Of a stretch of 64,000 nucleotides of DNA, positions 15,530 to 59,982 are shown piece by piece (the stretch's first letter is position 1; every line of letters starts with the position of its first letter). This DNA is from Candidatus Aquicultor sp. Its GTDB lineage: Bacteria; Actinomycetota; Aquicultoria; Aquicultorales; Aquicultoraceae. The translations under genes and the position numbers were made by a program. The stretch spans positions 1 through 64,000 of the forward strand of contig DASXVE010000030.1 in assembly GCA_036504445.1 (NCBI GenBank), read 5' to 3'. Under the pieces are notes generated by a model, which ran no database searches, was not told the origin of the DNA, and saw only the letters and a list, made by a program, of their open reading frames with translations.

Positions 15530-16030
15530 TTACTCGGCGTGCTCGGCTTTGAGCTTTGCGGATTTTTCGTTGAGCTGATCGCGAGTCTGAGCGCGCTTTG
15601 CTTCCAGGCGCTGTGCGAGCTCCATATCGGTAACCGCAAGTATCTCGCACGCGAGGTAAGCGGCGTTTGCCGCCCCATCAATCGCTACCGTTGCCACCGG
15701 GACGCCCTGCGGCATCTGCACGGTTGCATACAGCGCATCAACGCCGGCGAGCGCACCGGATTTTATCGGTACGCCGATGACCGGAAGCGTTGTGTGTGAG
15801 GAGATCACGCCGGCCAGGTGCGCAGCCATACCGGCGCCGCAGATAATCGCACCTAAACCGCGTTCACGAGCGATCTTAGCATATTGCGCAGCCTTATCGG
15901 GCAAACGGTGGGCGGAAATAATATCTATCTCGTAAGGAACATCCAGTTCTTTAAAGACGTTTGCGGCCTTCTCCATGACGGAAAGGTCGCTATCGCTTCC
16001 CATTAGAATTCCAACACGCGGCGTAGCCAT
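15530..16030 (-). CDS. purE: N5-carboxyaminoimidazole ribonucleotide mutase (PurE)
   Basis: 166 residues, normal length. It contains the class I PurE motifs GSDSDLSVM at the N-terminus, [17 protein letters not shown] and [12 protein letters not shown]. It interconverts N5-CAIR and CAIR in purine synthesis. GGAGG precedes the ATG, and a minus-strand TATTAT at 16090-16095 with a TGn extension is a likely -10. Class I PurE usually works with PurK, but purK is not in the window, either beside purE or with the other pur genes. Confidence 0.95.
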
Positions 16031-16117: not shown

Positions 16118-16441
16118 TTACTGAGCGCTTCTCAGGGCTTCATTAAGCGCTGCTCGCACCATGTCTTTGCTTGGATAGTGCTGTGCGCCCTCCAGGGTAT
16201 GATATATGCGGCATGAAAATGAATAAGTGGTTTGTCCCCAAGCGTTAGGGTCAACATCAAAACCATTTACCCTCACGGTCGGCGAACCTAAGAACTTATG
16301 CGAGATGGCTTCCGCTTCGCTCTGTATTTCTATTTCATTAATTTTTGCATTGATGCATAGCTCATCCATAGCCTCTTTGAGCGCCTCACGAGCGCTCGGG
16401 ACTCCCGGTCATCCTGCAAAATAGAGAAATTCAATATTCAT
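16118..16441 (-). CDS. Candidate selenoprotein, small thioredoxin-like protein with in-frame TGA (Sec) codon
   Basis: ATG at 16441 opens MNIEFLYFAG, then TGA (16409-16411), then PGVPSAREALKEAMDEL and an uninterrupted frame to TAA at 16118 (107 residues with Sec at position 11). In the many Cys-containing relatives the motif reads (L/F)YFxGCP at the same place, with LGSPTVRVNG-D(V/I)DP further on, as here; I recall this family being annotated as DF family (seleno)protein. A SECIS-like hairpin begins 12 bases after the TGA. Conventional gene calling would start after the TGA at 16369 and lose the active site. Function: thiol/selenol redox, substrate unknown. selA/selB/selC/selD are not in this window. 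There is no strong ribosome site. Confidence 0.78.
16379..16397 (-). promoter_or_regulatory. Bacterial SECIS-like hairpin after the TGA codon
   Basis: In the mRNA, nucleotides +12 to +30 after the TGA form GAGCGC / GCGCUC (6 perfect pairs) plus a U-G pair closing a 5-base loop CGUGA, with G as its second base. A stem-loop starting close after UGA with a G near the start of the apical loop is the bacterial SelB-binding pattern. Confidence 0.6.
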
Positions 16442-16498
16442 AGTTATATTTAACCACAAAAACAAAAAGACTCCATCAAAAGATGAAGCCTTAGACTC

Positions 16499-16575
16499 TG
16501 GCGGGAGCGACGGGATTCGAACCCGCGATCACCGGCGTGACAGGCCGGCATGTTAAACCGCTACACTACGCCCCC
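16499..16575 (-). tRNA. tRNA-Asp (GTC)
   Basis: 77 bases. Acceptor GGGGGCG/CGCTCCC; anticodon loop CTGTCAC (GTC); CCA encoded. Last of a four-tRNA cluster on the minus strand (Lys-Glu-Val-Asp). Confidence 0.95.
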
Positions 16576-59717: not shown

Positions 59718-59982
59718 CCGTGCACCTGCTGTTGACATCCGGCCCCAAGCGTTGCCGCGTAGTTGGCTCCAGCCAGGCTTCCCTGCGGCACACGAAATGG
59801 CCCGCTTACCGCTGCTTCCTCCCGGACCTCACGGGGTTCACGAGTTTTCGTTGCGCAGGACCCAGCTTTCAACACCACTTGCGCCACAACCGACCTTACA
59901 ACCGGGTAGCCTCGAGCAGGAATTCAGCCTCGCTATAGCGGATTGCGAGAACAGGGCACCGCTGCCTCCCCACCTAGCACGG
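59718..59982 (-). ncRNA. ffs: Signal recognition particle RNA (long bacterial form)
   Basis: 265 bases. The conserved helix 8 region reads GTGAACCCCGTGAGGTCCGG then GAGGAAGCAGCGGTAAG on the minus strand (near 59807-59844), the universal SRP RNA signature. The ends CCGTGC (5') and GCACGG (3') pair. The 5' domain begins CCGTGCTAGGTGGGGAGGCA as in other long (Alu-containing) SRP RNAs of Gram-positives. It starts only 7 bases after tRNA-Ser(GGA), so it is probably cut from a common precursor. Precedes dnaX as in Bacillus. Confidence 0.93.

Follow-up and report, generated by a model that had tools for sequence, protein, structure and literature searches.

The question raised by this locus is whether a TGA triplet lying within a short gene of Candidatus Aquicultor sp. 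terminates translation or is decoded as selenocysteine (Sec). In the window, meaning the whole stretch of 64,000 nucleotides of contig DASXVE010000030.1 that was analysed, the frame opens with an ATG at 16441, contains exactly one in-frame TGA (codon 11, 16411-16409) and closes with a TAA at 16120-16118, giving 107 residues, all as described in the initial annotation. As that annotation had also anticipated, the standard gene call at the locus is a protein of 83 residues with its start at 16369; routine annotation would truncate the protein and drop its active residue. The start of the gene is found about 25 nt past a terminator, and inspection of the upstream sequence revealed no evident Shine-Dalgarno sequence before the ATG. 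The features of the locus are collected in Table 1.

Table 1. Features of the DF locus and of its surroundings, with positions counted along the window.
Feature	Position	Strand	Basis and remarks
purE-like ORF, downstream neighbour	15530..16030	(-)	ORF call; conserved in four further relatives with the Sec form
DF-family selenoprotein gene, 107 aa, Sec at residue 11	16118..16441	(-)	translation with TGA=U; NF049942, 105.4 bits
83-aa ORF expected from a standard gene caller, without the active residue	16118..16369	(-)	ORF call
Codon of invariant Cys77, CRxY motif, second conserved site	16211..16213	(-)	family alignment; Sec in some other families
Candidate bacterial SECIS hairpin	16379..16397	(-)	stem of 7 bp closing the loop CGUGA; UGA to apical loop, 18 nt; -11.8 kcal/mol; weak alone, ~4% by chance
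TGA codon assigned to Sec, residue 11, GUP motif	16409..16411	(-)	translation and alignment; Cys in homologues
Terminator-like hairpin, after tRNA-Asp and just upstream of the DF gene	16467..16492	(-)	hairpin call
tRNA-Asp, upstream neighbour	16499..16575	(-)	tRNA call; four relatives with the Sec form have it next to the gene too

The 107-residue reading matches the NCBIfam model NF049942, "DF family (seleno)protein", with an E-value of 1.2e-30 and full coverage of the model; its 105.4 bits exceed the curated cut-off of 70 bits, and the score in the genome scan with the stop read through was 96.8 bits. DF is already listed among the selenoprotein families (PMC12013277; review PMC13188914), and the window gene joins this known family. 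The conserved motif is GUP in the window gene and GCP in the Cys homologues; all 36 aligned members have either Cys or Sec at residue 11 (site 1), and Cys77 (site 2) is just as invariant. Homologues devoid of Cys or Sec at position 11 had been named in advance as a finding that would count against Sec; every aligned member has Cys or TGA there.

The source genome (2.57 Mb, 34 contigs, 100% complete) contains selA (615 bits), selB (400 bits), the tRNA-Sec with anticodon UCA and selD (374 bits), located in a stretch of about 5 kb on contig C25, so that the search for selA, selB, selC and selD proposed in the initial annotation recovered all four genes. The selD gene (L018, G000:C25:104126-105046) itself carries an in-frame TGA in the N-terminal active-site loop (...SKSGUAAKMGPGD), indicating that the genome has at least one further selenoprotein gene; the standard caller places the selD start downstream of this TGA.

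The principal competing explanation is that the TGA is a nonsense mutation of a former Cys gene, whose remnant would be a pseudogene or the 83-residue protein from 16369; the presence of this standard ORF and the lack of a clear ribosome-binding site before 16441 would agree with it. However, nine of ten further genomes from the taxonomic family of the source genome contain the DF gene, with TGA at the exact codon in seven of them, spanning at least four genera, and Cys in two; one of the seven, G009, has an additional truncated Cys paralogue. A single scan of genome contigs yielded one homologue of the Cys type. The tree places both Cys forms inside the Sec-bearing relatives with moderate support, suggesting that Sec and Cys were exchanged within the taxonomic family. 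Downstream of the TGA, close TGA-bearing pairs display dN values of 0.03-0.06 and dS values of 0.25-0.50, with a dN/dS of about 0.1, which indicates that the frame past the TGA is under purifying selection at the protein level. The recurrence of the TGA at the same codon, this purifying selection and the full set of sel genes in the genome, together with the fact that the 83-residue form would be without the first strand and the active residue, make a nonsense mutation very improbable. The preference for Sec readthrough expressed in the initial annotation was thus borne out by the NF049942 match, by the same-codon TGA of the seven relatives and by the selection on the downstream frame; this comparative evidence is the strongest part of the case for Sec.

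Less probable still is the reading of UGA as Trp, or as Cys via a suppressor tRNA, since the long tRNA at C9:6865-6955 that could speak for it, while above the tRNA-Sec cut-off, is a tRNA-Cys (gca) by ARAGORN with anticodon GCA and not UCA, the genome has a tRNA-Sec(UCA), selA, selB and a Sec-type selD, and in four of the relatives the DF gene itself ends at an ordinary TGA stop, which argues that UGA is not simply reassigned there. This tRNA-Cys(gca) locus (L011, G000:C9:6865-6955), which exceeds the Rfam tRNA-Sec cut-off, has comparable second hits, also over that cut-off, in some relatives.

The TGA of the DF gene almost certainly encodes selenocysteine, and we are highly confident that the gene encodes a DF-family selenoprotein of 107 residues with a thioredoxin fold, with UGA codon 11 decoded as Sec under the direction of a SECIS element. 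The frame, the homology, the Cys/Sec exchange, the sel machinery and the purifying selection all point to actual Sec insertion at residue 11, in which SelB and Sec-tRNA would read the UGA as selenocysteine and the SECIS hairpin, starting 12 nt downstream of the UGA, would direct the insertion. As to the distribution of the machinery, selA is found in 16 of 18 Sec-form genomes versus 19 of 32 Cys-only or gene-less genomes (Fisher p 0.05, weak support). Two TGA-bearing genomes are exceptions: in G007 (97% complete), neither selA, selB nor selD passes the cut-off and no tRNA-Sec reaches the scores of the relatives, and G010 (77% complete) has no selA, selB or full selD and no tRNA-Sec at the relatives' scores. 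The sel genes form a single locus in the relatives, so that one assembly gap could take out all of them; alternatively, the sel genes may have been lost in the G007 lineage.

Bacterial SECIS elements are described as having a loop of 3-9 nt with a G among its first two bases, a stem of 4-16 bp, a distance of 16-37 nt from the UGA and an MFE of at most -7.5 (PMC13188914), and the window hairpin satisfies these limits (Table 1). By itself, this compatibility is weak evidence and not decisive: equally good hairpins were obtained in 129 of 3000 synonymous recodings of the DF gene (~4%) and at 48 of 1069 TGA triplets sampled in the window (4.5%), and the weight given to the hairpin in the initial annotation was overrated. 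The GAGCGC/GCGCTC pairing reported there was confirmed, beginning at the 12th base after the TGA, but the G is not second in the loop as had been claimed, since the 6-bp stem leaves the loop UCGUGAG with G in third position; G comes second only with an additional U-G pair closing the CGUGA loop. In the seven relatives, almost the same place is taken by a different and shorter stem, which reads GCRCA-GGA-TGYGC in most of them and has its loop about 20 nt from the UGA; relative to it, the window hairpin is a shifted, stronger stem. The SECIS fit is weaker in some relatives than in the window gene. No supportive compensatory covariation was observed in two registers of the hairpin across eight Sec genes, and none of the synonymous-shuffle tests of the relatives' hairpins was individually significant. 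The codons around the hairpin loop are CAG GAT in seven of seven relatives, whereas the first of these codons is GAA or GAG in the Cys forms. The Rfam search around the DF gene returned no SECIS family match, which is unsurprising because in-frame bacterial SECIS elements are poorly conserved.

The family was then considered across the phylum, where matches at E up to 0.001 were found in 104 of 397 sampled genomes, and 18 genomes in all have one or two TGAs in the gene. Translation places Sec at site 1 in nine genes, at site 2 in seven and at both in two (G076 and G265). The Sec motif at site 2 is URxY or URxF, aligned with Cys77; it replaces the first site as the Sec position in L036/L065 (G013), L038 (G027), L039 (G018) and L061-L064. 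The double forms L059 (G265:C35) and L060 (G076:C26) contain two in-frame TGAs, one per conserved Cys site, and a strong SECIS-like hairpin follows each of them. The hairpins of the site-2 TGAs and of both TGAs in the double forms range from -7.5 to -17.7 kcal/mol, within the same SECIS limits. L036 is flanked by genes for an LMWPc-family phosphatase/ArsC-like protein and a Sulf_transp-family protein.

An AlphaFold2 model built with 36 family members as input has a pLDDT of 96.9, and its best PDB folds by Foldseek are thioredoxins and SelW-like proteins, with TM of about 0.5; the top matches are thioredoxins, with a probability of about 0.99. The CxxC active site is absent, the window protein having UPGV and the whole family a single Cys/Sec at the motif; residue 11 therefore probably pairs with Cys77, residue 77 being its most likely partner. 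In the proposed mechanism, the selenol of residue 11 would occupy the place of the thioredoxin nucleophilic Cys, ahead of the first helix, and would probably form, together with Cys77, a redox or metal-binding pair of distant residues.

Possible functions are suggested by the genes surrounding the Cys homologues. The small actinobacterial homologues have 31-37% identity over at least 90% of the query, and all plasmid matches belong to actinobacterial genera, which makes Actinomycetota the probable phylum of the window. The plasmid-borne homologues adjoin or overlap an alkylmercury lyase gene and one of the MerR family, ArsR/SmtB regulators, a transporter for cadmium resistance accompanied by a signal peptidase II gene, and P-type ATPases for cations or copper. 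One of the six inspected plasmids has no metal genes near the homologue, and plasmids are in any case rich in metal genes. Among the chromosomal Cys forms, that of G004 lies downstream of an ArsR regulator and the end of a pyridine-nucleotide-disulphide reductase, that of G002 has a DsbD-like protein, a P-type ATPase and a thioredoxin as neighbours, and a MerR gene lies upstream of the acidobacterial form. In the window, the downstream ORF is presumably purE, a name given from its sequence and the surrounding pur genes, and the order tRNA-Asp, DF, purE accompanies the TGA form both in the window and in four relatives. Elsewhere in the window, a bacterial large SRP RNA (59718-59982) adjoins two tRNA-Ser genes. 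No metal genes adjoin the window copy of DF, whose role may thus be in general thiol redox instead.

The DF protein likely acts in redox or metal handling as a thiol/selenol protein with a thioredoxin fold, and its role would lie in thiol redox or in the handling of soft metals (Hg, Cd, Zn, Cu). The link of the Cys homologues to mercury/cadmium operons gives a "hypothetical" family its first testable function. We give even weight, for and against, to the broader reading that residues 11 and 77 form a reactive pair, with Sec at the first, the second or both sites and a SECIS of its own for each, and that the Sec forms represent the selenium counterparts of a thioredoxin-fold protein serving soft-metal (mercury/cadmium-type) resistance. 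The Sec/Cys exchange at both halves of this putative redox/metal pair offers natural variants for identifying the attacking residue.

Compared with thioredoxins (the Trx/ArsC complex 2ipa, NrdH-type proteins, MJ0307), DF shares the predicted fold and a cis-Pro-like SPT loop, but it has no CxxC, its Cys/Sec being placed before the first helix and the second residue about 66 positions further on; the match has a Foldseek E of only 0.009, with TM of about 0.5. The SelW-like/Rdx selenoproteins (2obk, 2fa8) are likewise a Sec/Cys family with a thioredoxin-like fold, whereas their identity with DF is 9-10% over the Foldseek alignment, and the NCBIfam search gave no SelW match for the DF protein. The small actinobacterial proteins annotated as "alkylmercury lyase" or "thioredoxin family protein" are DF homologues, most of those inspected being in metal-resistance operons, but the aligned members have Cys rather than Sec, and the lyase name derives from annotation alone; next to the DF homologue of Pseudonocardia lies a separate gene of the alkylmercury lyase family. 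The closest system is DF as defined by deep-Sep, to which the window protein corresponds as a member of a Sec/Cys family of about 100 residues, over the cut-off of the same curated HMM. The deep-Sep account of 2025 reports DF as a selenoprotein from a single Desulfosediminicola and describes no TGA-containing homologues in other Sec-using bacteria (PMC12013277). Here, instead of that one protein, TGA members occur in 18 genomes, probably of another phylum; the TGA takes either of two positions, and two genomes have it at both. Judged against that published text, the wider distribution, the second position for Sec and the forms with two Sec residues appear to be additions, and the enlarged set shows a selenoprotein family reported with one Sec member to extend across a phylum.
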